Positions 1 through 12,062 of a stretch of 64,000 bases of DNA are shown in pieces. The notes beneath the pieces are model-generated. The model had not been told where the DNA came from. It saw only the letters and a list, made by a program, of their open reading frames with translations, and ran no database searches. How positions within the stretch are numbered: position 1 is the first letter of the stretch; every line of letters starts with the position of its first letter. The position numbers were made by a program, and so were the translations under genes. This DNA comes from Intrasporangium calvum DSM 43043 (lineage in GTDB: Bacteria > Actinomycetota > Actinomycetes > Actinomycetales > Dermatophilaceae). The stretch covers positions 2,108,001 through 2,172,000 of the forward strand of contig NC_014830.1 in the NCBI RefSeq assembly GCF_000184685.1, read 5' to 3'.

Positions 1-407
1 GAGAAGACGTGGAAGAGGCCGAGCTTGTCGAGGATGCCGACCCAGCCGCCGTAGCGCTCGGAGGGGGTGCCGGCGAGCCACTGCGCGTAGGTCTGCTCGT
101 CCGCGCGGGCTTCGGGCGTGGCCTGCATGAGCAGGGTGCCGAAGAGGGTGAGGATGCCGAGCAGCAGGATGATCCACAGACCCGTGCGCATCGAGATGAG
201 GAAGAGCCAGACGCGCCTGAGCGGGTGCTGGTTGCGGTGGTGCGGGTGGTTCGCGTCCTGCTTCTGGAGGCCGTCGAGGACGTCGACGCCGTGCTCGACG
301 TGCCCGAGGTCGTCGTCGACGCTGTCGACATGGCCAGGCACGTGGGCCGTGACGCGCGTCGCGACGCGCGAGCTGGCCTCCTGGCGGTTCCTGACGCTGG
401 TGGTCAT
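1..407 (-). CDS. resB: Cytochrome c biogenesis protein ResB (N-terminal part, cut by window edge)
   Basis: The reading frame opens at ATG 407 and runs off the left edge, so only about 135 residues are visible. ResB (Ccs1) works with CcsA/ResC in System II cytochrome c maturation, moving haem across the membrane and attaching it to CXXCH apocytochromes. After a hydrophilic, His-rich leader of about 70 residues comes the typical opening of the family, with a 'SMRTGLWIILLLGILTLFGT' first membrane segment near residues 83-102. An AAGAGG-like ribosome site precedes the ATG. It lies 82 nt after ccdA in the same direction, and multihaem cytochromes are upstream, which supports the role. The unusual leader and the unseen C-terminus are the uncertainties. 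Confidence 0.85.
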   Translation of the reverse strand, partial: MTTSVRNRQEASSRVATRVTAHVPGHVDSVDDDLGHVEHGVDVLDGLQKQDANHPHHRNQHPLRRVWLFLISMRTGLWIILLLGILTLFGTLLMQATPEARADEQTYAQWLAGTPSERYGGWVGILDKLGLFHVF

Positions 408-489
408 CTCGATGCCTCTTTCAGCTGGCGGTGGTGGTGGCGGGTGCTGCTGCAGGTCGTGGTGGAGGCGGGCTCCGGGCCGAGGCGGC

Positions 490-1227
490 TCATATCGTGA
501 ACCCGGGGACGTACTGGGAGAGACGGACGAAGAGGTTGGTCATCATCAGGAAGCCGACGATGACGAGCATCGATCCGGTGACCATCGAGACGGCGGCCTC
601 GTGGCGGACGAACCAGTTGAGGCGGTTGCCCAGGGCGCTCACCCCGAGCGCGACGAAGATGAAGGGCAGACCGAGCCCGACGGCATACGCGACGAGGAGC
701 GCAGCTCCCTCACCGACGCTCGAGCGGAGCGAGGCGAGGCCGATGATGCCGCTGAGGATCGGGCCGACGCACGGCGTCCAGCCGGCGGCGAAGACGACCC
801 CGAAGAGGACCGACCGGCCGACGTGCGGGCTCTGCTGCTCGACGGTGCCGTCGGCCCGGCGGCGGAGCAGGCTGCCCATGGACAGCCCGCTCTGCCGGGT
901 GAGGAAGGGGAGGGAGATGAGGCCAGCGACGTGCAGGCCCATCAGGATGAGCACCACTCCCCCGACCTTGCGCAGCACGTCGACCTGGTCGCGGAGCAGG
1001 TAGCCGACGAGCCCGATGGAGGCCCAGAGGGCGACGAAGACGACGGTGAAGCCGATGACGAACGCCACTGCCTGCTGGAGGGTGGTGCGCCGCGTGGGCC
1101 GGACCTCCGCCCCAGTGCCGCCGACGATGTAGCTGACGTAGGCCGGCACCATCGGCAGGCAGCACGGCGAGGCGAAGGAGACGATGCCTGCCAGGAACGC
1201 CACTGCGAGGGTGATGTTGCCGGTCAT
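490..1227 (-). CDS. ccdA: Cytochrome c biogenesis / thiol-disulfide carrier protein CcdA
   Basis: This 245-residue integral membrane protein has the six-helix layout and length of CcdA/DsbD-beta. It passes reducing equivalents from cytoplasmic thioredoxin to the outer face so that apocytochrome CXXCH cysteines are kept reduced before haem ligation. The redox cysteines are visible in the first helix ('FASPCCLPMVPAY', around residue 20) and in the 'GWTPCVGP' motif near residue 150. It is followed by resB and preceded by a TPR gene ending 46 nt away, so it probably belongs to one leftward maturation operon. A role in other extracytoplasmic disulfide pathways is possible, but the context favours cytochrome c. 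Confidence 0.93.
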   Translation of the reverse strand: MTGNITLAVAFLAGIVSFASPCCLPMVPAYVSYIVGGTGAEVRPTRRTTLQQAVAFVIGFTVVFVALWASIGLVGYLLRDQVDVLRKVGGVVLILMGLHVAGLISLPFLTRQSGLSMGSLLRRRADGTVEQQSPHVGRSVLFGVVFAAGWTPCVGPILSGIIGLASLRSSVGEGAALLVAYAVGLGLPFIFVALGVSALGNRLNWFVRHEAAVSMVTGSMLVIVGFLMMTNLFVRLSQYVPGFTI

Positions 1228-1273
1228 GTCAGTCTGCTCCGTGGTCCGCGTCGTCCGCTGGGTGGCTGGTCGG

Positions 1274-2143
1274 TTACTTGGTGGTGGTGGGCTGGCCGGA
1301 CGGCTTCGTGACGTCGCCGACCTGGGACTGGACGGTCTTGGCGAGCTCGCTGTTCGGGTCGATCTCGACGACCTTCTTCCACTCGGACTGCATGAGATCG
1401 GAGCGGCCGGTCGTCATGTAGAGGAAGCCGAGGTCGTAGTGCAGCTCGGCGTTGTCCGGGTGAGCGGCGACGCCGGCCTTCCAGGTCTTCTCGGCGGTGG
1501 CGTTGTCGCCGGAGTTGTAGGCGGCCGCGCCGAGGCTGATGAGCGCCTGCGCGTTCTTCGGGTCGATGTCGAGCGCCTTCTGCGAGAACGCCTTCGCGTT
1601 GGCCCAGTCGTTGGCGCCGAAGTAGAGGTCGGCGATGCCCTGGAGGGAGGCGATGTCCTTGGGGTTCGCCTCGACCTTCTTGGTCAGCTCGGCGAGCTTG
1701 GCGGGGTCGACGGCGGCGGCCGTCTGCGTCTGGCTGGTGTCCTGCGCCGTGGTCATCTCGGGGACGTCGGGCTTGCCCATCCAGTAGACGCCGAGGACGA
1801 CGCCGATGGTGACGAGGACGGCGATGATGCCGACGAGCATCCGGTTGGTCCGGTTCGGCTCGGTGGTCTCGGCCGCCGCACCTGCTCCGCTCGGCCGGGC
1901 GAGGGCCCGCAGCTCGGACTCGGGTCCGGTCAGCAGGGCGAAGACGCGGTCGACCTCCTGCTGCCGGCGGTCGGCCCACCCGCGGATGTCGGTCGGGGCC
2001 CCCTCGAGGTACTCGACGATCTGGTCGTGGGTGGCCTCCACCTCCTGGTCGTCCGCCCCCGCGTCGAGCCCGAGCCGGGCCAGGAGGTCGGACTTGACGC
2101 GCGTGGGGCTCGTCGTGGTGGTGGCGCCCTTGGCTCGGGACAT
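1274..2143 (-). CDS. Membrane-anchored TPR protein (CcmI/CycH-like role suspected)
   Basis: The protein has 289 residues. The start is set at ATG 2143 because AGGAG sits upstream at normal spacing; a longer frame to 2275 lacks this. Residues 1-100 are hydrophilic and acidic, one membrane helix lies near residues 103-123 ('MLVGIIAVLVTIGVVLGVYW'), and the remainder is a run of tetratricopeptide repeats with the expected W/L/G/Y/A/P spacing. TPR proteins next to ResB/CcdA often hold apocytochrome or assemble the maturation complex, as CcmI does in System I; that role is inferred here. The N-terminus is faintly J-domain-like ('LLARLGLDAGADDQEVEATH'), which I do not press. A dyad lies 81 nt upstream. 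Confidence 0.8.
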   Translation of the reverse strand: MSRAKGATTTTSPTRVKSDLLARLGLDAGADDQEVEATHDQIVEYLEGAPTDIRGWADRRQQEVDRVFALLTGPESELRALARPSGAGAAAETTEPNRTNRMLVGIIAVLVTIGVVLGVYWMGKPDVPEMTTAQDTSQTQTAAAVDPAKLAELTKKVEANPKDIASLQGIADLYFGANDWANAKAFSQKALDIDPKNAQALISLGAAAYNSGDNATAEKTWKAGVAAHPDNAELHYDLGFLYMTTGRSDLMQSEWKKVVEIDPNSELAKTVQSQVGDVTKPSGQPTTTK

Positions 2144-2223
2144 GGGTCTCACTCCTGGGTCAGAAGACAGTGGTCGGTGGTGAAGGTTGGTGAATCCAGT
2201 GTGCTTTTGAGCGATTTGCTGAA

Positions 2224-2252
2224 CTATCCGCCGCAAGGCACATGTCAGATAG
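2224..2252. promoter_or_regulatory. 29-bp dyad sequence upstream of the TPR-ccdA-resB genes (candidate operator)
   Basis: Arms CTATCCG and CAGATAG are inverted repeats with one mismatch, separated by 15 nt. The sequence matches 23 of 29 positions of the element at 8424-8452, which lies upstream of the second TPR gene. Sharing between two same-cluster upstream regions suggests a common regulator, possibly the nearby LuxR-type response regulator; that link is inference. Confidence 0.5.
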
Positions 2253-2351
2253 AGATCCGGTCCATGCCCGTCCATGCCCGTCCATGCCCCGTCCAGGTGG
2301 TCCCCCGGGTCACGGAGACCTGGCTCACATCCGGTGGCCGGCAGGCCATGT

Positions 2352-2366
2352 CGTATGCCGCCGGGC
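2352..2366 (+). repeat. Dispersed 15-bp motif, copy 1 (CGTATGCCGCCGGGC)
   Basis: One mismatch to the consensus CGTATGCCGCTGGGC. It lies 55 bp beyond the stop codon of the large multihaem cytochrome gene, in a 277-bp gap (2144-2420) that also holds the dyad at 2224-2252 and no other evident gene. Confidence 0.6.
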
Positions 2367-2420
2367 CCGCTTCCGGGGTCACCGACGTCGCGTGGTGGTC
2401 GGGTGCGGACGGGACGGCCA

Positions 2421-4790
2421 TCAGTTGCTGTAGGTCGCGCCCTGGTGGTCCTTGCCGTGGCAGGTCAGGGTGCAGGTGCCGCCGGTGGCCGTCTTCTTGA
2501 AGGTCGGGACGCCTCCCATCGCCTTGCTCGGCAGGACGTTCGGCGGGAAGCCGATGAGGCGGTCCCCCGCGACCTGCTGGCCGTCGGGCAGCTGGGTCGT
2601 GCCATGGCTGCTGAAGTGGCACTCGGCGCAGCGGGCGTTGCCCTGCCCAGCGCCCGGGGTGTCGATGTCGAGCCCGCCGCTGCCCTTGGTCGTGATGCCG
2701 GAGACGTGCAGGCCGTGGAAGACGAAGTTCGTGCCCTCGGCAGCGGCCGGCCGGACGCGGTTCAGGTACGGGGTCTCCATGTGGCAGGCAAGGCACAGGG
2801 CGAAGCCCTTGGCGTCGTAGTACTGGCCGGCCTTGGACAGGACGCGGTTCTCGTAGGGCCGGATGAGGATGCCGCGGTTCGTCGAGGCGTGGACCGTGAG
2901 GGTCGCGTCGGGCCCGTTCTCCGCCGGGTCGGCGGAGGTGCCGGTCGTGTTGCTCGCGTGGCAGCTGACGCAGCGGACGGTGTCGTTCGTCGTGAAGTTC
3001 CACAGCTTGTAGGGCGAGGGCCCGGCGAGGCTGTCGGCGAGCTTCTGGGTCTGGTTGCGGCCCGGGGCCTCGATCGGGTGATAGGAGCCGTTGGCCGGGT
3101 TGAAGTCCACGGCGAGGTCGGTGAAGCTCTGCGACGGCTTGCCTGCCACGTCCTCGGGGAGCGTCGTGAAGCCCGAGTGGCACTTGAGGCACAGCTGGTA
3201 CTCGGCCGTGACGGGCTGGACCATGCCGTCGAGCCAGGTGTACGTCGGCGCGGTGCCGGCAGCCCCGTTGGTCACGGCGACACCGCCCACCTTGGTGAAC
3301 CCGCCGGGGGCGGTCCAGCCGGTGGCGGTCATCGTCGACTTCGACGTCGTCGCGCCGTGCGGGTCGTGGCAGTCGCTGCACTGGCTGTGGCGGCTCAGCG
3401 CGCCCGCGAACTCGTTCTTGGAGTCGAGCGTGTGGTCCCCCGGGTCGGTGGTGTCGTGCGACCAGTAGGAGCGCGTCGTGGGGTCGTTCGCAGGCTGGCC
3501 GAGGGCGTACTGCGCCTGGACGTCCGCCCCTCCGGTTCCACCGGCGTGGCAGGTGTAGCACTGGTCGGTCTCGGACGACTTCTTCACGAGGTTCTGCGAC
3601 TTCGCCGAGTGCGTCTGGTGGCACACGCCGCACTGGCCGCTCGTCGTGGAGGCTCCCGGGTTGTGGATCGTGCCCGGCCCGTTGGGGCCGACCGTGATGA
3701 CCGCGTCGGTCGCCACGTCGGGGCCGGCGAGCGCGGTGTAGAGGGGGTAGCTCGTCTTCGTCGCGTCAGCCTCTGGCGCGCCGACGAGGGCGTAGGCGGT
3801 GGCCTGGGCCTCCGGGAGCCCGGAGACCTGCTCGCCGTCCTGCTGGCCGGGACTGGCGAGGGTCGCCGGCGCGGCTCCGACGGTGACGGTCGCCGGCTCG
3901 AGGAGCGGGATCGCTGACCCGTCGTCCGTGACGCGCAGCTCGTAGCTCGTCCCGTAGCCGGCGTCGATGGACAGCGTGACGGTGAACTCCTGCTCGGTGG
4001 CGGTGCCCGGCGGGAGGAAGTAGGGGGTGACCGGGTTGATCCCGCTGGAGCGCTGGCCGGCCACTGCGGTGAGGCCGTCGGGAATCGTCACGTGCAGCGA
4101 GTCGGCCGGGATCGGAGTCGATCTCGGCGCCGGCGCGGAGCCGGTCTCGGTGGCGACCCACTCCTCGGCGGAGTGGAGCGGCACGCCCGGCGTGGCGGCC
4201 TCGGGGACGACCTGGAAGTCGCCGGTCCCGGCGACCCGGAACTCGAGCTGGGGCGTCACCGTCACGGGGTCGGGCCCGCCGTTGAGCAGCGGGGCGACGA
4301 GACGGACGGACTGGAATGGGCCGAGGCCTGCGGCGGGCGCGCCTGCCGGCAGGTACCGCGGCGTCACGCCGGGGTCACCCAGCAGCGCGAGGGCGGCGGC
4401 TCCGCCGCTCAGGCCCGGGACCGGCAGTGAGAGCAGGTCGGTCGAGGCGGCGGTCAGGTCGGTCGATGACGTGGCGCTCGGTTCGGTCGACGGATCAGTG
4501 GCCGGGGCGGTCGTTGCCGCCGCTTCGGTGCCAGGGGTCGTCCCGGAGGTCGTCGGTGACGGCTCTGCGGTCGGCGGCGCCGTCGGCGTCTCGGTCGCCG
4601 AGCTCGTCGGAGTGGGGGTGGGCGACGGGCTGCTGGTCGTCGTCGCGGTCGGCGTGGGAAGGTCCTCGGCCGCCAGGCCGACGGCCGGCGTCGCCGTGAG
4701 CGCGAGGGCGAGGAGAGGCACCATGGCCACCGCAGCAGGCCATCCACCGAGCCGGGTGTGGCGCGGTGGGGTGGTCCGGTTGCGTGTCAT
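2421..4790 (-). CDS. Secreted multihaem c-type cytochrome with N-terminal beta-rich domain
   Basis: The protein has 789 residues and begins at ATG 4790 behind GGAGGA. A signal peptide ends near residue 41, followed by a long Thr/Ser/Pro/Glu-rich linker (about 45-110) suited to crossing a thick cell wall. A beta-rich segment (about 140-310) comes next, then a cytochrome region. Seven CXXCH haem sites lie near residues 387, 410, 471, 534, 607, 666 and 721, and a CTLTCH (CX3CH) site lies near 773. Several are followed by 'DPH' or 'H', as in the doubled-CXXCH cytochrome family. It presumably carries electrons outside the membrane. I cannot name a substrate, and no terminal reductase motif is recognisable. 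The maturation genes downstream fit. Confidence 0.88.
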   Translation of the reverse strand: MTRNRTTPPRHTRLGGWPAAVAMVPLLALALTATPAVGLAAEDLPTPTATTTSSPSPTPTPTSSATETPTAPPTAEPSPTTSGTTPGTEAAATTAPATDPSTEPSATSSTDLTAASTDLLSLPVPGLSGGAAALALLGDPGVTPRYLPAGAPAAGLGPFQSVRLVAPLLNGGPDPVTVTPQLEFRVAGTGDFQVVPEAATPGVPLHSAEEWVATETGSAPAPRSTPIPADSLHVTIPDGLTAVAGQRSSGINPVTPYFLPPGTATEQEFTVTLSIDAGYGTSYELRVTDDGSAIPLLEPATVTVGAAPATLASPGQQDGEQVSGLPEAQATAYALVGAPEADATKTSYPLYTALAGPDVATDAVITVGPNGPGTIHNPGASTTSGQCGVCHQTHSAKSQNLVKKSSETDQCYTCHAGGTGGADVQAQYALGQPANDPTTRSYWSHDTTDPGDHTLDSKNEFAGALSRHSQCSDCHDPHGATTSKSTMTATGWTAPGGFTKVGGVAVTNGAAGTAPTYTWLDGMVQPVTAEYQLCLKCHSGFTTLPEDVAGKPSQSFTDLAVDFNPANGSYHPIEAPGRNQTQKLADSLAGPSPYKLWNFTTNDTVRCVSCHASNTTGTSADPAENGPDATLTVHASTNRGILIRPYENRVLSKAGQYYDAKGFALCLACHMETPYLNRVRPAAAEGTNFVFHGLHVSGITTKGSGGLDIDTPGAGQGNARCAECHFSSHGTTQLPDGQQVAGDRLIGFPPNVLPSKAMGGVPTFKKTATGGTCTLTCHGKDHQGATYSN

Positions 4791-4831
4791 CGGTGCCTGT
4801 CCTCCATTTGTCGGAGAGTGAGGATGGGGGT

Positions 4832-4876
4832 GTGGGGCTGCGGGCGACCTGGGTGAGAAGCCACCCGCAGCCTCAC
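4832..4876 (-). terminator. Inverted repeat after the second multihaem cytochrome gene
   Basis: Arms at 4832-4844 and 4864-4876 pair at 12 of 13 positions (core GGCTGCGGG / CCCGCAGCC) with a 19-nt loop. It sits between the stop codon at 4921 and the start of the next leftward gene at 4790. No U-run is visible, as is common for actinobacterial terminators; a processing hairpin is the alternative. Confidence 0.6.
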
Positions 4877-4920
4877 GGTGATCTGGTCAGACTCGGCTGT
4901 TGTGTCTCAGCTGGGCCGGA

Positions 4921-6120
4921 TCAGACGTTGTGGCACATCACGCAGATGCCCCGGTCGTCGACTCGGAGGAGTCGGCTGTCCGAGCTGGGCGTGGTGCCGT
5001 CCGGCCACTCCACGCTCGAGTTCGGCATGACCGCGTTGGAGCCGTGCGCGACGTGGCACTGGATGCAGTTCCGGCTCCTGGCGTCCCTGTCACCGCTGAC
5101 GTTGTCACCGGTGTGCCGGTAGGTGAAGACCGCGTCACCAGAGTCGGTCTTGTACGACTGCGACGGGGCGAGGTAGCGCGTGTGGCAGGTCGTGCACCAC
5201 GCCGCGACGTTCGCCATGTACGGGCTCACCGCCACGGACGAGGTCTTGATCTTCGGCGTCGGGTCCACAATGGACGTTGCGCCGAGAATCGTCGTGGTCA
5301 ACTCCTCTGCCGGAACGTTCGTGTCGCCGACGCTCCAGTAGTTGTCCGTCGTGTAGACCTTGTTCGTCGTGTCCGGGATGAGGATGCCGTCGGGGAAAGC
5401 CGTGGCGCTGAAGCCCGAATCACTCGGAACGGGCCGGAGGATGCGGTACTGCTTGTTCCCATGCGGGTCGTGGCAGGACGTGCACTCCAGCTTGGGGCTG
5501 CTCATGACCTTGCCCGTGTTGGGCGTGGCCGAGAGGGCCCCGTTGCCCCACATGACGTTGACGCCACCGAGGTGGCTCGACGTCGTGGCCTCCTGCGTGG
5601 GGGCCGGTGGGATGAGCTGGTTCACTGAAGTCCAGCCGTGCGCCCCTAGGACGCCCATGTCCTTGGTGGCCTCGCTCGAACCGAGCATGGCCTTCTCGAA
5701 GCCGCCGCCTCGAAGCGGCAGGACCTGGGTGGAACCACGGACTACCGTTTGCACGGTCGTGCCGTCAGGATAGGTAGTGGACGAAGCGGTGTCATACCCG
5801 ACGCCGCCCTGCACGTCCGTCGTTGCGCCCGTGCCGCCCGTGCCGTGGCAGGAGAAGCAGAGTGCCTCCTCGGATGTTGCGTTGAGAAGGTACGGCGCCT
5901 TGGCCGTGTGGGCCCGGTGGCACGAGGCACATCGGCCCTGACCGGCGTCGCTGATCTTGACACCGTTTGTGGGTTGGCCATCGACGAACGTCGTGTTGTT
6001 CGTGGCCGTGGAAACGTGCGGACCGTTGTCGGCTTGCGCCGGCGTGGCCCCCATGAACAGCGCGGCGGAGGCGGCCGCCACGAGGACGACCCTCCGCATC
6101 ACTTTTCGGTCTGTTCTCAT
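4921..6120 (-). CDS. Secreted hexahaem c-type cytochrome
   Basis: The protein has 399 residues from ATG 6120; an in-frame ATG at 6099 is an alternative, and neither has a strong ribosome site. A signal peptide ('VVLVAAASAALFMGATPAQA') ends near residue 30. Six CXXCH sites lie near residues 64, 88, 213, 309, 352 and 393, the last three residues from the C-terminus-proximal 'CHNV'. Two sites carry the 'CHxxH' or 'CHDPH' pattern of doubled-motif cytochromes. There is no beta-rich leader, so it is probably a smaller partner of the 789-residue cytochrome downstream. The region before the start (6121-6200) is noticeably A/T-rich for this genome and likely holds the promoter. Confidence 0.85.
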   Translation of the reverse strand: MRTDRKVMRRVVLVAAASAALFMGATPAQADNGPHVSTATNNTTFVDGQPTNGVKISDAGQGRCASCHRAHTAKAPYLLNATSEEALCFSCHGTGGTGATTDVQGGVGYDTASSTTYPDGTTVQTVVRGSTQVLPLRGGGFEKAMLGSSEATKDMGVLGAHGWTSVNQLIPPAPTQEATTSSHLGGVNVMWGNGALSATPNTGKVMSSPKLECTSCHDPHGNKQYRILRPVPSDSGFSATAFPDGILIPDTTNKVYTTDNYWSVGDTNVPAEELTTTILGATSIVDPTPKIKTSSVAVSPYMANVAAWCTTCHTRYLAPSQSYKTDSGDAVFTYRHTGDNVSGDRDARSRNCIQCHVAHGSNAVMPNSSVEWPDGTTPSSDSRLLRVDDRGICVMCHNV

Positions 6121-6262
6121 GATCGTTGAGTCCAATCTGAGGTGTGAATTTGTGTATTCAGTTGTGTTGTGCCGTGAACCAGACCGTCCGCCTCGCCGTA
6201 GTGCCGGCGTGCCTCCGTCGGGCCACTCCTGCGGGGGTCCGGTGCGTGGACTACACAGGTCA
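6121..6262 (-). promoter_or_regulatory. A/T-rich upstream region of the hexahaem cytochrome gene
   Basis: The 142 bp between the NHL gene stop and the cytochrome start contain T/G-rich sequence (TTGTGTATTCAGTTGTGTTG around 6149-6168) unlike the surrounding DNA. A leftward promoter here is likely, but no clear -35/-10 pair can be assigned. No copy of the 29-bp dyad is present. Confidence 0.4.
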
Positions 6263-7348
6263 TCAGTAGCCCCACACCTGGATCCGGTTGTTCTCGCGGT
6301 CGGCGACGTAGACCCGACCGCGCGTATCGGTGGCGACACCGTTCGGGAAGAGGAAGGTGGCGTCCTCCCGACCTTGGTCGCCGAACGACCCGACATATGT
6401 CGGATGATCGGTCGGCTTGGCCGCGGCCGTGAAGACGCGCACCTGCTGGTCGGTGGTGTCGACGACGAACAGCCGCCCTTGGTCGTCGAGCGCCAGGCCA
6501 CGGGGCAGGCCGAGGTCACCGTCACCGATCCCCCGCGAGAGGAGCGGGGTCATGGTTCCGCTGGCCTCGAAGACGACGACTCGGCCGTTGTTGCTGTCGG
6601 TCACGTAGATCTCGCCCTGCGGACCCGGCACGATGGCGTTCGGGTAGTTGAGCTCGCCCTTGCCGAGCGTCTTGACCAGCCTGCCGTCCCCGGCGAGGAC
6701 GAGGATCCGGTGGTCCTTCGGCTCTGAGCTGGAGGCGTCGGCGACGTAGAGCGTGCCGTCCCCGGACACCCCGATCCCGAGCGGTGAGAACGTCAGCTTC
6801 TTGTCCTTGGGCGTGAAGGTCGAGCGGTAGGCGCCGGCACCGCTATACACGTAAACCTTGCCCGCGGCGCGGTCGCCGACGTAGACCTCCCCGGTCGTCG
6901 GGTTCACAGCCACATACACAGGAACGTGAGGCCCTTTGTCGGTGGCCGGCGGCCTGAGTTCCCCAAGTCTCTTGCCGTCCCGGTCGTAGACGAAGGCAGC
7001 CCCCTCCGTGCCGGACTGGGTGACGTAGATGCGCGAGCCATCCGGGGAGACGGCGACACCGAGGGGCTTGTCGACCCCGTAGAACGCCGTCTTGTAGGTG
7101 GGGACCTTGCCGGTCTGGAGACCGGGCAGCTCAGTGAGCGGCTTGCGGTTCATCAGGTACCAGGCGGCCAGGCCACCGAAGAGCACGAGCGCCACGACGA
7201 GCAGCCAGGCGATGATCTTGCGCCGCCGCCTGCGGCTGGGGTCGTCGACGCCTGCCGGAGGCGTGGCCGGAGGCCCACCGAGGTCGTCGAGCTCCTCGAG
7301 GAGGGCGTCGTCCGACGCGGGTGCCGGGCGGGTCTGGGTGTCACTCAT
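6263..7348 (-). CDS. Membrane-anchored NHL-repeat beta-propeller protein
   Basis: The protein has 361 residues. ATG 7348 is chosen because a GAGGA site precedes it and because it follows the TPR gene stop by 11 nt. An acidic cytoplasmic N-terminus (1-45) with an Arg cluster precedes one membrane helix (about 47-66), so the rest faces outward. Residues 80-361 show five to six NHL-type blades with recurring patterns such as 'PNAIVPGPQGEIYVTDSNNG' and 'PNGVATDTRGRVYVADRENN', ending 'NNRIQVWGY'. Such propellers act as protein or ligand scaffolds. Being sandwiched between a TPR protein and multihaem cytochromes suggests an assembly or docking role at the electron-transfer complex; that is inference. 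Confidence 0.82.
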   Translation of the reverse strand: MSDTQTRPAPASDDALLEELDDLGGPPATPPAGVDDPSRRRRRKIIAWLLVVALVLFGGLAAWYLMNRKPLTELPGLQTGKVPTYKTAFYGVDKPLGVAVSPDGSRIYVTQSGTEGAAFVYDRDGKRLGELRPPATDKGPHVPVYVAVNPTTGEVYVGDRAAGKVYVYSGAGAYRSTFTPKDKKLTFSPLGIGVSGDGTLYVADASSSEPKDHRILVLAGDGRLVKTLGKGELNYPNAIVPGPQGEIYVTDSNNGRVVVFEASGTMTPLLSRGIGDGDLGLPRGLALDDQGRLFVVDTTDQQVRVFTAAAKPTDHPTYVGSFGDQGREDATFLFPNGVATDTRGRVYVADRENNRIQVWGY

Positions 7349-7359
7349 GTCCGCTGTCC

Positions 7360-8325
7360 TCACTTCTTCGCCGTCGACGCCGGCGTCTCGCCGAGCGCCG
7401 AGAGCGACGACATCGCCGAGACGTTCGTCGGGTCCTTGGCCAGCGCCTTCTGGTACCAGGCGACCGCGCCCTTGGTGTCGCTCTCCGTCTCGGCGATGAG
7501 GCCGAGGCCGAGCAGGGCGTCGACTGCGGCGGGGCCCTTCGTCAAGGCGGCGAGCTGGGTCTTCGCCTCGTCGACGTGCTTGCCGCAGAAGGCGACCATC
7601 GCGGCGGCGTAGGACGCGAGCTCCGGCTTCTTCATTGTTGTGTAGGCCGTCTGCAGCTGCTGGTAGGGCTCGCACCAGCCGGTCGGCACGAAGCGGAGCG
7701 CGTTCTTGAAGGTCGCGACGGCCTTCTCCGGCTTGCCCTGCTGCAGCTGGGCCAGGCCGACCTGGTACATCGCGTCCGAGTCGGTGGGAGCGATGTTGAG
7801 CGAGTGGCTCAGCTGTTCGATCGCCAGCTCCGGCTTCTGCTGCTTGATGGCAATGACACCGAGGTAGTAGTAGGCCGCTCCGAGGAGCGAGTCCGAGCTG
7901 GCGAACTCGCCCTTGCGGCTCGCCTTGATGACCTTGGTCAGCGGTGCCGTGGCTCCCGCCAGGTCGCCCTTCTCGAGGAGGGCATAGCCCTTGGCCACGA
8001 GGGCGTCCTTGCTGTCGGGTGCCACCTTGAGCACCTGCTCGAACTGCGCCACGGCGTCCTCGTAGCGCTTGGCCTGCTGGTAGACGAGGCCGAGCTGGAG
8101 TCGCGCGTCGACGTTGTTGGGGCTCTTTCGGACGGCCGCCTCCGTCAGGTTGATCTGCTGCTGCAGCATCGACGGGGCCGGGGTGACGTACTGGTCCTTG
8201 TAGTAGAGGAATCCCACGGCAACGAGCCCGACGACGAGCACCGCCACCCCCAGCCGCAGGAAAAGGGTCAACATCCGGTCGGACGAACCGACCGCGAGTC
8301 GGTGCTCGCTTCGTGCATGTGCCAC
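7360..8325 (-). CDS. Membrane-anchored TPR protein of the cytochrome cluster
   Basis: The protein has 321 residues. GTG 8325 is preferred because CCTC (GAGG on the coding strand) lies 5 nt before it; an ATG at 8364 is possible. A single membrane helix near residues 20-41 ('FLRLGVAVLVVGLVAVGFLY') is followed by about six TPR units from residue 60 onward ('DARLQLGLVYQQAKRYEDAV'). Two cysteines sit in the later repeats. It overlaps nothing but is spaced only 11 nt from the NHL gene, so the two are likely co-transcribed. It resembles the 289-residue TPR protein in layout but has no long acidic leader. It is probably an assembly factor for the exported cytochromes, though no substrate is evident. 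Confidence 0.8.
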   Translation of the reverse strand: MAHARSEHRLAVGSSDRMLTLFLRLGVAVLVVGLVAVGFLYYKDQYVTPAPSMLQQQINLTEAAVRKSPNNVDARLQLGLVYQQAKRYEDAVAQFEQVLKVAPDSKDALVAKGYALLEKGDLAGATAPLTKVIKASRKGEFASSDSLLGAAYYYLGVIAIKQQKPELAIEQLSHSLNIAPTDSDAMYQVGLAQLQQGKPEKAVATFKNALRFVPTGWCEPYQQLQTAYTTMKKPELASYAAAMVAFCGKHVDEAKTQLAALTKGPAAVDALLGLGLIAETESDTKGAVAWYQKALAKDPTNVSAMSSLSALGETPASTAKK

Positions 8326-8643
8326 TGGTACCTCACCCGTCCTTTGTGGCGGTTCTGCCGGCATGCCTGCCGCTCGGAGGCGAAATCCTCCGTGTTCATC
8401 GTGTGCGCACCGGGCCCCGGGGCCTATCCGCCGCAGGGTAGAGATCGGATAGAGGCACCGGCGGGACTCGTCCCTACCCGCTCAAACCCATGGATCCCGT
8501 CACGTTTCGCTCCCAGCGCGATTCCGGGTCCGCAGATCGCCCTACACTCTCCTTGACGCAACAGTCACCCGGTCCGGCGAAGGAGCAGGTCGATCGCCAC
8601 CAAGTCCGCCACCACAGCAGGGCACGCCGAGAGCCCGAGTGCC
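8326..8643. other. Divergent intergenic region between the TPR gene and the sensor kinase
   Basis: This 318-bp gap separates leftward cytochrome-cluster genes from the rightward two-component genes, so both promoters should be here. It holds the 29-bp dyad at 8424-8452 and GC-rich sequence. No open frame with a credible ribosome site was found. Confidence 0.5.
8424..8452. promoter_or_regulatory. 29-bp dyad sequence, second copy (candidate operator)
   Basis: Arms CTATCCG and CGGATAG are a perfect 7-bp inverted repeat 15 nt apart. The spacing and the first 12 bases are identical to the copy at 2224-2252. It lies 99 bp before the TPR start and 192 bp before the kinase start, so it could control either direction. 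Confidence 0.5.
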
Positions 8644-10443
8644 GTGATCCACTCCCCCTCCGGGGAGCCTTCCTCCGACGGCCCACCCCCACCGCAGCCG
8701 CGCACGCCGCTCGTGAGCCGGCGGCTCCGGCTGGTCGGCATCGTCCTACCCGTGGCCGGGGCGGTCATCCTCGAGCTGGCGCGCTATGTCCTCGAGTCCC
8801 GGGGCTACTGGTCGCCGGGGCTCATGGAGACCTGGCACGTGGCGATGGTCATGCTCGTCATCGGCGGCATCGTCGTCTTCGCCCTGTTCATGTTCCGCCT
8901 CATCGACGACTCCGAGCGGCAGATCATCAGCCAGAACCGCGACCTCACCACCGCGAACGCCGTGGCCGGGGCCATCCAGGGCCAGTCGACGGTGTCGAGC
9001 ATCATCGACGGGACCCTCGACGCGATCGTGCGGTCGGCCGGAGCTGTTCAGGCGAGGATCCGGATCTTCGACACGCCGGGCGCGGCCGACTCCGAGACCT
9101 CGACGTACACCCTCGTGGCGACCCCCGGGCTCGAGTCGTCCGAGCACCCCAGCCTCGATGTGCCCCTCACCCACGGGGCGGTCACCGTCGGACGCCTCGC
9201 GATGTGGTACCCGGACGGGGTCGACCCGACCGAGCGGGTCGGGAGCTCGGCCCTGTCGAGTCTGACCACCCAGGTGGCCTGCGCGATCCAGCTCGCCGAG
9301 GCCGTCGCGGACCTCAACCGGCGCAAGATCGAGGGACATGCGCTCTACGACATCCTCCTGAGGGTCTCCAACCAGGACCCGACGACCCCCGTTCTCGACG
9401 CCGTCGCTCGGCACGCCATGGTCCGGCTGCACGCGGACGGCGCCGCCATCACGCTCAACCCAGAGACCGCCAGCTCGGTGCGGTTCGAGGCCGGCCCGGA
9501 AGCCCCGACCCTGCGCCCCGACGGAACCGCCGTGATGGCCTGCGGGACCCCCGTCGATGCGCGGAGCAGCAACCGCGGCCGCAACGGACGGACCAAGGAG
9601 CCGGCACCTCAGCACACCGCGAGCAAGGTCGTGTCCGGACCGGCCGGCCCGCTCGGCGAGATCACCGTGGCGCGGGTCGCCGGCTCGGCCTTCTCAGAGC
9701 GGGACTGCGGGTTCCTGTCCACGCTGGCGAGCCTCGTCGGCATCGCCCTCACCGGCGCCCAGATGCGAGAGCTGTCCCGCCAGCGGGCCATCCTCAACGA
9801 GCGCACCCGGATCGCCCGGGAGATGCACGACAGCCTCGCGCAGGTGCTCGGCGCCGTGCACCTGCGGCTGCGCGCCCTGGGGGCGACCTACGCCAGCCTG
9901 CCCCAGGACCAGGTCGCTGAGGAGATCGACTCCCTGGCCGAGGTGTGCGCCGAGTCCTACCGCGACGTCCGCGAGACGATCCTCGGCCTGCGCGACTCCC
10001 ACCAGCACGCCGAGCGCAGTCTCGAGGACAACCTCCGGGCCTACCTGACGAAGTACTCCTCCCAGTCCGGAATCGCCGCCACCCTCATCAACGAGGTCGG
10101 GCACGAGGTGAGCCTCTCGCCCCGCGCCGAGGTCCACCTCATCCGCGTCGTGCAGGAGGCGCTGACCAACGTGCGCAAGCATGCCCACGCGTCGTCGGTC
10201 ACGGTGAGCGTCAACGGCACCGACACGTCGACGAGCTTCGCCATCGAGGACGACGGGGTGGGCTTCGACCCGGTCCACACGGCGAGCGCGCAGGACGGCT
10301 ACGGCCTCTTCACGATGCGGGACCGCGCGGCCCTGCTGGGCGGCACGGTCGACATCGACTCCGTCCTCGGCCGCGGCACTCGCATCATGGTGACGGTGCC
10401 GGAGCGCCCGTTCGCCCCTCGTGCCGTCGGGAGCACCCGGTGA
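8644..10443 (+). CDS. NarX-like sensor histidine kinase with GAF-type sensing region
   Basis: The protein has 599 residues and opens at GTG 8644. Two membrane helices (about 29-48 and 66-87) are followed by a linker helix and two GAF-like regions (about 105-225 and 235-380). The HisKA_3 dimerisation box carries the phospho-acceptor His395 in 'REMHDSLAQVLGAVHLRLRA', and the ATPase domain has the N-box 'EALTNVRKHAH' (about 505), 'EDDGVGF' and 'GYGLFTMRDRA'. This is the NarX/DegS-type arrangement paired with LuxR-family regulators. It overlaps the regulator gene by 4 nt. Facing away from the cytochrome genes, it may sense a redox or electron-acceptor signal; the ligand is unknown. Confidence 0.93.
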   Translation: MIHSPSGEPSSDGPPPPQPRTPLVSRRLRLVGIVLPVAGAVILELARYVLESRGYWSPGLMETWHVAMVMLVIGGIVVFALFMFRLIDDSERQIISQNRDLTTANAVAGAIQGQSTVSSIIDGTLDAIVRSAGAVQARIRIFDTPGAADSETSTYTLVATPGLESSEHPSLDVPLTHGAVTVGRLAMWYPDGVDPTERVGSSALSSLTTQVACAIQLAEAVADLNRRKIEGHALYDILLRVSNQDPTTPVLDAVARHAMVRLHADGAAITLNPETASSVRFEAGPEAPTLRPDGTAVMACGTPVDARSSNRGRNGRTKEPAPQHTASKVVSGPAGPLGEITVARVAGSAFSERDCGFLSTLASLVGIALTGAQMRELSRQRAILNERTRIAREMHDSLAQVLGAVHLRLRALGATYASLPQDQVAEEIDSLAEVCAESYRDVRETILGLRDSHQHAERSLEDNLRAYLTKYSSQSGIAATLINEVGHEVSLSPRAEVHLIRVVQEALTNVRKHAHASSVTVSVNGTDTSTSFAIEDDGVGFDPVHTASAQDGYGLFTMRDRAALLGGTVDIDSVLGRGTRIMVTVPERPFAPRAVGSTR

Positions 10444-11126
10444 GCGAGCCGATCCGCATCCTGCTCGTCGACGACCAACCGCTCTTCCGGGGCGCCATCG
10501 CGGCGCTGCTCGCGCGCCAGCCGGACATGGAGGTCGTCGGTGAGGCCGAGAACGGGCTCGCCGGGGTGGAGCAGGCCCGGGCCCTGCGCCCTGACCTCGT
10601 CATCCTCGATGTCGAGATGCCGGTCATGAACGGCGTCGAGGCGGTGCGGCTCATCCGTGAGCAGGTCATGGACGTCAAGGTCATCATGCTGACCGTGTCC
10701 GACGTCGAGGACCACGTGCTCGAGGCCCTGCGCAACGGCGCCCACGGTTACCTGCTCAAGGACCTGCGCCCGGAGCAGCTGTACGACATGGTCCGGTCGG
10801 TGATGCGCAACGAGACGCCGATCTCCCCCGGTGTCGCCGGTCGCCTGCTGCGGGAGATCCGTCAGGCGGGCAAGCCGCGCGTGACGTCGCCGGCCGCCAC
10901 GACCGAGCAGTCGGTGACCCGTCGCGAGCTCGAGATCCTGCGGCTCGTGGCGGAGGGGCTGAGCAACAAGGAGATCGCCAAGCGCCTCGTCATCACCGAG
11001 GGCACGGTCAAGAACCACGTCCACAACGCCCTCGAGAAGCTCCACATGGACAACCGGATCCAGGCGGCCGCCTACGTGATCCGGCAGGGGCTGGGCGCCC
11101 CGGGCAGCGAGCCCGCCGGCCGTTGA
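10440..11126 (+). CDS. NarL/FixJ-family response regulator
   Basis: The protein has 228 residues and starts at GTG 10440, overlapping the kinase stop as GTGA, which implies translational coupling. The receiver domain shows the acidic pocket D11-D12, phosphorylation site D57 ('LVILDVEMP'), the switch Thr in 'MLTVSD' and Lys in 'LLKDLRP'. After a linker, a LuxR-type helix-turn-helix spans about 155-215 ('RRELEILRLVAEGLSNKEIA'). It is the cognate partner of the upstream kinase. The dyads at 2224 and 8424 are natural candidate targets, but no binding evidence can be read from sequence. Confidence 0.95.
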   Translation: MSEPIRILLVDDQPLFRGAIAALLARQPDMEVVGEAENGLAGVEQARALRPDLVILDVEMPVMNGVEAVRLIREQVMDVKVIMLTVSDVEDHVLEALRNGAHGYLLKDLRPEQLYDMVRSVMRNETPISPGVAGRLLREIRQAGKPRVTSPAATTEQSVTRRELEILRLVAEGLSNKEIAKRLVITEGTVKNHVHNALEKLHMDNRIQAAAYVIRQGLGAPGSEPAGR

Positions 11127-11260
11127 CGGCCGGCTCCGTTCGCCGCACCGGGTATAGGCCGACCCGTGCCGTTCCTGTAACCAGAGCCGGATGGCTGCGC
11201 GTCCCTCCGCGCACTTATCCTGAACGCGGAACGGCCGGATCCGCAGAGGAGAGTGACGGG

Positions 11261-11593
11261 GTGGAGCACGAGACGTCGGTGCTCGTCATCTGCGAGCACG
11301 AGCTCCTCGGCGAGGGTCTGGCTGCTCGGTTGCAGATGATGGGCGTCCAGGCGCTCGTCGCGGCCGCCCACAACGACCACGCGGTCGTCCTGGCCTTGCG
11401 GGCACACCCGGACGTCGTCGTCATCGAGACCCCGGACCCCGCCTGCCTCGACCGGGTCATGACGTTGAGCCCCTCCTCCCGCATCGTCGACGCGACGAGG
11501 TCGATCGGCCGGGGGTTCCCGACCGAGACGATGCGCTTCGACGCGATCCTGGAGGCGCTGCCGGTCAACCAGCGGCCGGAGGCCCTGGCTTGA
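11261..11593 (+). CDS. Orphan degenerate receiver-domain protein
   Basis: The protein has 110 residues. GTG 11261 is chosen because GAGGAG lies 8 nt upstream. The N-terminal pattern 'SVLVICEHELLGEGLAARLQ' follows the beta1-alpha1 pattern of response regulators (compare 'VLIVDDHELVREGL'). The beta3 segment 'PDVVVIETPDP' has Glu where the phosphorylated Asp should be, and the acidic pair is reduced to one Glu. No output domain follows. It is therefore either a phosphorylation-independent receiver or an unrelated small Rossmann-like protein. It lies 134 nt after the response regulator and its last 29 nt overlap the convergent membrane gene. Confidence 0.65.
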   Translation: MEHETSVLVICEHELLGEGLAARLQMMGVQALVAAAHNDHAVVLALRAHPDVVVIETPDPACLDRVMTLSPSSRIVDATRSIGRGFPTETMRFDAILEALPVNQRPEALA

Positions 11594-12062
11594 CGTAGGC
11601 GGCTCGCAGGTGCCGCGAGTTGAGCAGCGTCGCCACGACGAGCAGGATCACGGCCAGCACGACCTGCTCGATGATCATCCACGTCGGGTACAGCCCTGGG
11701 ATGAAGCAGCTCGCGACGGCGACGACGGGGAAGACGACCGAGAAGAGGCGCAGCCTGGAGTAGGCCCACCACCAGCCCCGTTGGGCCCGCCAGACGAAGT
11801 AGTACAGCGACGCCGTGAGCAGCGAGATCATCACCAGCCGGGTCCAGACGATCCAGCTCATCGACGCACCCATCTCGGTGCGCACGACCGCGAGGAGCAC
11901 GGCCGCGACGTCGAGGGAGAAGGCAGCCGTGATCCCCATCGCGACATCGGCGAGGATGCGGCGGCTCTCGGGGTGCTCGGTGTGCTCGGGCGGCACGCGC
12001 AACCGGGCCTTGCGCCCGCCACCGATGCGGTCCAGCACCCGGGCGACGACCTCGACGTCCAT
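11565..12062 (-). CDS. Four-helix membrane protein of unknown function
   Basis: The protein has 165 residues with a basic, charged N-terminus (1-35) and four predicted membrane helices at about 38-60, 68-88, 104-122 and 128-147. Trp and Tyr are abundant at the boundaries ('YYFVWRAQRGWWWAYSRL'). No family is recognised. It is 15 nt upstream of nothing on its strand except the convergent receiver gene, which it overlaps by 29 nt at the 3' end. It starts 15 nt after the end of thrS in the same direction, so read-through from thrS is plausible. Confidence 0.6.
   Translation of the reverse strand: MDVEVVARVLDRIGGGRKARLRVPPEHTEHPESRRILADVAMGITAAFSLDVAAVLLAVVRTEMGASMSWIVWTRLVMISLLTASLYYFVWRAQRGWWWAYSRLRLFSVVFPVVAVASCFIPGLYPTWMIIEQVVLAVILLVVATLLNSRHLRAAYVKPGPPAAG

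Follow-up and report, generated by a model that had tools for sequence, protein, structure and literature searches.

The systems closest to the one described here include the osc operon of Geobacter sulfurreducens, which joins a hexahaem cytochrome, OmcS, with helpers such as the propeller-like OscD and the prolyl isomerase OscH, and gene clusters of the Gram-positive bacterium Dethiobacter alkaliphilus. The osc operon has been summarised as providing folding, secretion and morphology proteins for OmcS (PMC13194489). In D. alkaliphilus, multihaem cytochromes and a CymA-like quinol oxidase are clustered with NHL and TPR proteins. Most cytochromes that this bacterium over-expresses on ferrihydrite or thiosulfate belong to these NHL/TPR clusters, for which a part in the assembly of complexes has been suggested (PMC10376724). 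The ImdcA-PdcA-CwcA-OcwA path of Thermincola ferriacetica includes an inner-membrane decahaem and a hexahaem cytochrome, the latter being proposed to cross the thick wall (PMC7911101), and a survey of ImcH proteins counted one actinobacterial homologue and listed Intrasporangium calvum as an exception whose homologue has a single transmembrane (TM) segment (PMC6295460). Here we analyse 64,000 nucleotides of I. calvum DSM 43043 (the window, positions 2,108,001–2,172,000 of the single 4,024,382-bp contig), at whose left end two multihaem cytochromes, CytA and CytB, lie among genes for an NHL propeller, two TPR proteins and cytochrome c maturation. This region probably makes up the greater part of a respiratory operon, co-inherited but patchy in its distribution, by which menaquinol electrons are led through the monoderm wall to the outside.

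The cytochrome operon of I. calvum

A sequence-only reading of this stretch had described a self-contained cytochrome module with its own maturation, scaffold and two-component genes, and all the genes that it named are present, on the strands that it gave:

1–407, minus strand: N-terminal part of ResB (PF05140, E 7.8e-70 for the whole protein; the gene, genome 2106863–2108407, is a single frame cut by the window edge)
490–1227, minus strand: CcdA of the DsbD_TM family (PF02683, E 6.3e-16), a thiol-disulfide membrane protein that serves cytochrome c maturation
1274–2143, minus strand: TPR2, membrane-anchored TPR protein (TPR families, one hydrophobic segment; 2143 is the probable start, the open reading frame (ORF) reaching 2275)
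2421–4790, minus strand: CytB (PF09699), with an N-terminal hydrophobic segment, a Thr/Ser/Pro-rich linker, a beta-sandwich domain and a haem domain
4921–6120, minus strand: CytA, probably exported hexahaem cytochrome, OmcS-like (PF09699, E 6.4e-19; six CXXCH)
6263–7348, minus strand: NHL beta-propeller with one N-terminal membrane segment, residues 45–63 (PF01436, E 1.6e-30)
7360–8364, minus strand: TPR1, with which the operon begins, a membrane-anchored TPR protein (TPR families; hydrophobic segment at residues 32–50)
8644–10443, plus strand: histidine kinase (PF07730, PF02518; a weak GAF-like PF13185 match falls below the cut-off)
10440–11126, plus strand: LuxR/NarL-type response regulator (PF00072, PF00196)

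A Kyte-Doolittle scan gives TPR1, NHL and TPR2 a single hydrophobic segment apiece, and the N-terminal hydrophobic segments of CytA and CytB suggest that both are probably exported. CytA has six CXXCH motifs and CytB seven together with one CX3CH, in agreement with the 13 CXXCH plus one CX3CH counted earlier. The description of the module as self-contained needs correcting, because the same-strand run continues for about 7.6 kb to the left of the window, so that the window holds the right part of a longer operon.

In this left flank (read in genome 2,098,001–2,118,000), the order on the same strand is the rest of ResB, CcsA/ResC (PF01578, E 4.9e-41), a ResA-type thioredoxin (PF00578), a decahaem NapC/NirT protein, a MerR-like gene, NrfH and NrfA. 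The ccsA/resC gene for which the sequence-only reading suggested looking leftward is therefore found there, and the proposal that the module carries its own cytochrome c maturation is borne out by a full System II (Ccs) set of ResB, CcsA, CcdA and ResA-type thioredoxin within the operon. The gaps between genes are 11 bp (TPR1–NHL), 142 bp (NHL–CytA), 130 bp (CytA–CytB), 277 bp (CytB–TPR2, from start 2143), 46 bp (TPR2–CcdA), 82 bp (CcdA–ResB), 31 bp (ResB–CcsA) and 72 bp (CcsA–ResA); the ResA and decahaem genes overlap by a few bases, and 41 bp (decahaem–MerR-like), 183 bp (MerR-like–NrfH) and 7 bp (NrfH–NrfA) follow. From TPR1 to the decahaem gene no gap exceeds 277 bp, and the genes from TPR1 to NrfA may form one transcript.

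The decahaem protein (~569 residues) has one TM segment, ten CXXCH motifs, the first being CTTCH, and a NapC/NirT domain (PF03264, E 3.4e-11). At E 0.01 this family occurs at two places only in the genome, the decahaem protein and NrfH; because the decahaem protein occupies one of these two places and has the single TM segment listed in print, it is probably the published I. calvum ImcH homologue. It shares with the ImcH family a NapC/NirT-like N-terminal domain, a membrane anchor and multiple haems. Geobacter ImcH, however, has three TM segments with a CX3CH beside them, whereas the I. calvum protein contains no CX3CH; a similar motif, described as ImcH-typical (PMC6295460), is kept in three remote decahaem relatives, which have eight CXXCH and one CX3CH, and ten CXXCH are found in 12 of the 17 relatives.

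Elsewhere in the genome, a second ResA-CcdA-ResB-CcsA set lies near 725 kb (L006:5845-10033, genome ~724–728 kb). It is 25–38% identical to the operon set, adjoins genes that we take to be haem biosynthesis genes, and is likely the housekeeping set. The operon proteins score far higher against Chloroflexota loci than against this second set (385 versus 66.6 bits for ResB, 295 versus 121 for CcsA, 254 versus 120 for CcdA and 166 versus 52.8 for ResA), and by this measure they are nearer to the maturation proteins of Chloroflexota module loci than to those of their own genome.

Distribution of the module and exchange of its maturation genes

Searching 186 genomes of the family with CytA returned eight at E ≤0.001, six of which (G000, G041, G049, G180, G181 and G182) hold further module genes; the other two (G022, G151) have no other module gene near the match and were left out. 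Among 396 genomes sampled from the order, 1 matched a CytB profile at E 1e-20, and among 396 from the phylum 9 did so; both counts include G000, and the eight other phylum matches cover the haem half of CytB only. A contig scan with the CytB alignment gave 455 relatives, from which the best 80 loci were kept, comprising 31 close loci (best CytB), four intermediate and 45 of low score; 12 of the 31 were annotated gene by gene, and the presence counts that follow take only loci with enough flanking DNA (room). Among these best 80 of 455, the closest CytB loci come from Actinomycetota, Chloroflexota and a few further bacteria.

Upstream of CytB in the close loci, TPR1 is present in 17/17, NHL in 18/18, CytA in 20/23, the response regulator in 8/13 and the kinase in 5/10. 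Downstream, TPR2 is present in 16/22, CcdA in 12/20, ResB in 12/19, CcsA in 11/15, and ResA and the decahaem gene each in 10/14. The 45 remotest loci retain NHL in 18/26, CytA in 8/36 and TPR1 in 7/24. The core of TPR1, NHL, CytA, CytB, TPR2, maturation genes and decahaem gene recurs in other Actinomycetota and in Chloroflexota, often with the kinase and regulator upstream, and the co-occurrence check proposed by the sequence-only reading finds the module genes co-inherited, with conserved order, among the close loci with room. Within Actinomycetota the module is patchy, which suggests transfer or repeated loss. A tree of NHL (leaving out L082 and L083) does not decide between them: one change is required for the Actinomycetota rows (support 64/86) and two for those of Chloroflexota, and seven rows fall in no group.

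The maturation genes themselves vary. Besides the 12 close loci with ResB, four (L046, L050, L052, L053) carry System I (Ccm) genes, with no ResB in the available DNA, and three (L056, L058, L060) have neither. The System I genes encode CcmE (PF03100, E 6.4e-18), a fused ABC-CcmB protein (PF03379, E 5e-30) and CcmF (PF16327, E 3.8e-42), the L046 sequence ending ahead of CcmF. They follow the decahaem and thioredoxin genes on the same strand in L046 and L050; in L052 and L053 they are encoded on the opposite strand, in the DNA upstream of TPR1, together with TPR2. CytB, NHL and both TPR proteins are retained in all four loci, and CytA was not found in L052 or L053. Since the NHL tree shows L052 and L053 to be near-copies, the Ccm loci amount to approximately three independent rows. 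The replacement of System II by System I at these loci speaks for haem loading as one of the tasks of the unit.

Set against the described systems, the locus shares with the osc operon a hexahaem OmcS-like cytochrome and a beta-propeller helper in one cluster, the NHL gene, which is OscD-like by description, being upstream in every close locus with room. No counterpart of the prolyl isomerase OscH appeared when 16 proteins from the I. calvum region were scanned against Pfam, and the I. calvum operon differs further in belonging to a monoderm and in including its own maturation genes and a quinol-dehydrogenase-type decahaem gene. The Dethiobacter clusters are likewise similar by description, and the text of PMC10376724 uses neither ResB nor CcsA as a term; the Thermincola path, also likened by description, shares the decahaem and hexahaem pair, and NHL is not mentioned in the text of PMC7911101. 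The earlier remark that this combination could not be named was thus overstated, given that NHL/TPR multihaem clusters and an I. calvum ImcH homologue are in print; the module as a whole is built of known kinds of parts and is not named as a unit in the literature found. In open-licence literature, where absence is weak evidence, we found no published description of the whole module, of the System II/System I exchange at such loci or of the cis element described below.

The cytochromes, the two-component pair and a conserved upstream element

The haem motifs of the two cytochromes are not a matter of chance, since exactly six CXXCH are present in 30 of 31 CytA relatives (seven in the remaining ORF) and the CytB CX3CH is kept in 79 of 80 relatives, the lone miss being cut by a contig end. 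In 32 aligned CytA sequences there are exactly six invariant histidines outside the motifs, candidate distal ligands: motifs 1, 3 and 5 each hold one inside their CXXCHxxH, and each of these three motifs is preceded by one more. This pattern points to bis-histidine ligation. Within the genome, the CXXCHxxH pattern is confined to the operon and two simple repeats. A search for doubled CXXCH (Paired_CXXCH_1) returned CytA and CytB only, to which hmmscan adds weak, above-cut-off matches in NrfA and NrfH.

Against all solved chains, a deep CytA profile finds OmcS first (E 5.9e-10), with one stretch covering motifs 1–5 and a second extending to motif 6, followed by 6r2q, which we take to be MtrA-like, and 7tfs, presumably OmcE. 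The latter identification agrees with PMC12954529. The controls on this match are mixed. Shuffles with fixed C and H never reached the observed score (0/300), whereas segment permutations did so in 15/300 cases, unit permutations in 146/1000 (best single stretch 383/1000) and shuffles with fixed motif environments in 90/1000 (best single stretch 253/1000). In an hhalign order test the natural order was matched by 0/250 permutations globally, a result that partly reflects spacing, and by 1/250 locally; the default hhalign alignment of CytA with OmcS spans 31 columns only. Because the permutation and environment controls reach the observed score, much of the E-value comes from the surroundings of the haem motifs; we therefore claim a resemblance to OmcS and not membership, the identification by sequence alone, for which the E-value had seemed decisive, being undercut by these controls. 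The AlphaFold model of CytA (mean predicted local distance difference test score, pLDDT, 47.8) was too poor for use; searched for similar folds, it returned a single match of no significance. The CytA histidine aligned with residue 16 of the OmcS chain, presumably the bridging ligand, is invariant. An OmcS subunit itself supplies 11 of its 12 axial histidines and receives the remaining one from a neighbouring molecule (PMC6584659), and an OmcS homologue of 28% identity has been noted in a coriobacterial genome (PMC7399161). Further CytA-like genes lie between NHL and CytB in three Chloroflexota loci (L041, L042, L059).

In CytB, the seven CXXCH and the CX3CH are invariant in 44 aligned sequences; as 43 of these were taken from the 80 relatives for having exactly seven CXXCH, the invariance of the seven motifs is partly by choice, and that of the CX3CH is not. 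The CX3CH lies within 60 residues of the C-terminal end in 75 of 80 relatives and further in for four of the other five, and is almost certainly a genuine site, at which haem may be attached, judging from this conservation. The CX3CH-bearing family spans many phyla and reaches far beyond the module; an NHL gene frequently stands close to its members. The predicted part of CytB has a confident beta-sandwich domain (block-mean pLDDT 88–98 over residues 1–180), whose fold search gave weak beta-sandwich matches and none at E ≤0.001. A search for plasmid relatives of CytB found none.

The kinase has predicted TM segments at residues 28–46 and 66–84, with about 19 residues between them and no large periplasmic sensor, and NarQ/NarX models match residues 347–587 only, far below cut-off. 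A periplasmic domain of the NarX/NarQ type is thus absent between the TM segments, and the kinase is unlikely to be a NarX-type nitrate sensor; of the NarX/NarL-like pair proposed earlier, the divergent arrangement and the NarL-type regulator stand, and the NarX label does not, except for the catalytic half of the kinase. Outside I. calvum, the response regulator keeps 55–76% identity in 13 module loci and 31–37% in two remote ones. Motif discovery, from which the near-duplicates L034, L062 and L053 and regions too near a contig edge were left out, found a 22-bp element before TPR1 in 14 of 19 regions, with a score gain of 214.6 against 71.6–80.8 in five shuffled sets. Two copies were located in the window by scanning with a position weight matrix (PWM):

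8424–8445, minus strand: conserved cis element before TPR1, candidate regulator site (motif discovery and PWM scan; core of the dyad CTATCCG-N15-CGGATAG, 8424–8452)
2224–2245, minus strand: weak copy of the element, TPR2 type (PWM score 12.0, under the counting threshold of 14; inside the longer TPR2 ORF; relatives carry stronger copies at the TPR2 5' end)

The wider (~31-bp) consensus of 17 sites is close to CTGTAcC-n-gaT-n-TCTACC-nnn-CG-n-CGGATGGGa. The PWM finds 26 sites in 468,241 bp of module loci versus 5 in 1,404,723 bp of shuffled DNA; as the matrix was trained on TPR1 sites, independent support comes from the sites at the 5' end of TPR2 (L035, L036, L039, L051, L057 and probably L037, gene starts being uncertain; score 12.0 in both I. 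calvum strains) and from second sites in L059 (L059:6545) and L062 (L062:6542), the strong extra copy in L059 lying just before a CytA-like gene. The element upstream of TPR1 is common to Actinomycetota and Chloroflexota (sites in L034–L066), and the TPR2 variant ends in CAAAT in Actinomycetota. In the I. calvum genome, the only exact match to the searched consensus is the one before TPR1, and two mismatches allow 40 matches against 20 for a reversed control pattern, so that no clear regulon targets emerge elsewhere. The regulator may bind this element. A palindrome, TAYCC-N5-7-GGRTA, tried earlier as the regulator site was present in 3 of 105 upstream regions only and gave way to the 22-bp motif, and a riboswitch before TPR1 or TPR2 was dismissed when window positions 1–11200 gave no Rfam match except one, sub-threshold and elsewhere. 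Past the two-component genes, a 165-residue ORF (window 11565–12062, minus strand) has no Pfam match, and the gene beyond it is presumably thrS.

Probable electron export and its alternatives

In the reading that we favour, judged from protein families and arrangement, the ImcH-like decahaem NapC/NirT protein would oxidise menaquinol at the outer face of the membrane, and CytA, with six haems, and CytB, with eight haem sites and a flexible linker that could span the wall, would pass the electrons on. ResA, CcdA, ResB and CcsA would constitute a second, dedicated haem-loading set, TPR1, TPR2 and NHL would be anchored helpers that hold or dock apocytochromes, the conserved kinase and regulator would work via the shared upstream element, and NrfHA would be a neighbour at this locus in I. 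calvum, perhaps served by the same maturation genes. The dedicated electron-transfer role outside the membrane put forward by the sequence-only reading remains the best inference, and the NHL protein may be an assembly hub, as that reading supposed; the adjoining NrfHA, the decahaem protein, the recurrence in Chloroflexota and the shared cis element are additions to it. Several points weigh against export. Gene content, conserved order, haem sites and the element can be read from the DNA; the direction of electron flow is not fixed by it. Nearly all CytB relatives are contigs of metagenome-assembled genomes, of the close loci with room only 5 of 10 have the kinase upstream and 8 of 13 the regulator, and none of the literature matches listed was found to report metal or electrode reduction by I. 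calvum. Five Chloroflexota loci (L041, L042, L045, L059, L062) have genes for a Rieske protein and a cytochrome b behind the decahaem gene, so that the electron entry point may differ there; neither was found in the ~3 kb beyond the decahaem gene of L038 and L047. Finally, the I. calvum operon runs into nrfHA, whose transcripts rise with nitrite (PMC6349771), and a link to nitrite is thus possible.

The nrfH and nrfA genes (L004:2428-4372, genome 2100428–2102372) are the last of the same-strand run, NrfH scoring above the TIGR03153 cut-off and NrfA (PF02335, E 1.2e-127) having CXXCH at all five haem sites. Once they were found, the possibility arose that the whole stretch is a nitrite-ammonification operon, in which the decahaem protein, CytA and CytB feed NrfHA or store electrons for the six-electron reaction and the Ccs genes load NrfHA. 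The two genes follow the decahaem gene on the same strand with one MerR-like gene between, in I. calvum PheN6 as well, and in strain C5 NrfAH is functional and the nrfH and nrfA transcripts rose together with nitrite production (PMC6349771, whose text contains none of the terms TPR, gene cluster and NarX). NrfHA, however, is downstream in only 1 of 14 close loci with room, that of the sister strain PheN6 (L034), and full-length NrfA (E<1e-100) is present in 3 of 31 module genomes, namely PheN6, a Propionibacterium bin and a Micrococcales bin, six more genomes having short partial matches only, where the possible incompleteness of bins makes absence from any single one weak evidence. Of eight family genomes searched for NrfA, G000, G041 and G180 have it in full length, and G049, which is 97% complete and carries the module, has none. 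Moreover, NrfH by itself links quinol to NrfA in known systems, the kinase lacks room for a NarX-like periplasmic domain, and the conserved element was not found in the MerR–NrfH gap (best score -4.2). The rarity of NrfA argues that the module is not basically a nitrite system and that NrfHA is not part of its conserved core, and together with the empty gap it leaves a nitrite-only role unlikely.

An inward conduit, fed by Fe(II), humics or a partner cell and delivering electrons to the quinone pool, oxygen or nitrate, would be in keeping with the bidirectionality of certain multihaem conduits (PMC6295460), with aerobic and nitrate respiration in I. calvum (PMC6349771) and with the Rieske/cytochrome b pair of the five Chloroflexota loci; as ImcH-type proteins have so far been implicated in quinol oxidation only (PMC6295460), we give this direction little weight. 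A wall-bound electron store or detoxification path with no respiratory exit likewise seems unlikely: neither CytA nor CytB matched a Pfam domain of known substrate, their function being assigned by family arguments, but a quinol-dehydrogenase-type gene, and often the regulator too, is co-inherited with them. Electron export thus remains our preferred reading. A more specific version of it, a portable cytochrome-nanowire operon of monoderms, is offered tentatively: CytA would polymerise like OmcS, CytB would cap the wire or anchor it through the wall, the NHL and TPR proteins would assemble it, either System II or System I would serve for haem loading, and a single regulator and a single element, kept across two phyla, would switch the operon on.

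If electron export is right, dedicated electron export of the Geobacter type would extend to ordinary soil Actinomycetota and to Chloroflexota, with nearly the same gene set in distant, mostly uncultured bacteria and a cultured strain in which to test it; if the nanowire version holds as well, a culturable, oxygen-growing soil actinobacterium would make such wires. The exchange of maturation genes provides a natural experiment, with two unrelated haem-attachment systems apparently at work on related cytochromes, and the module-specific cis element offers a handle for finding more copies and for testing the regulator. The locus also carries a warning, in that the nrf genes of I. calvum stand at the end of a larger operon whose purpose is probably different.

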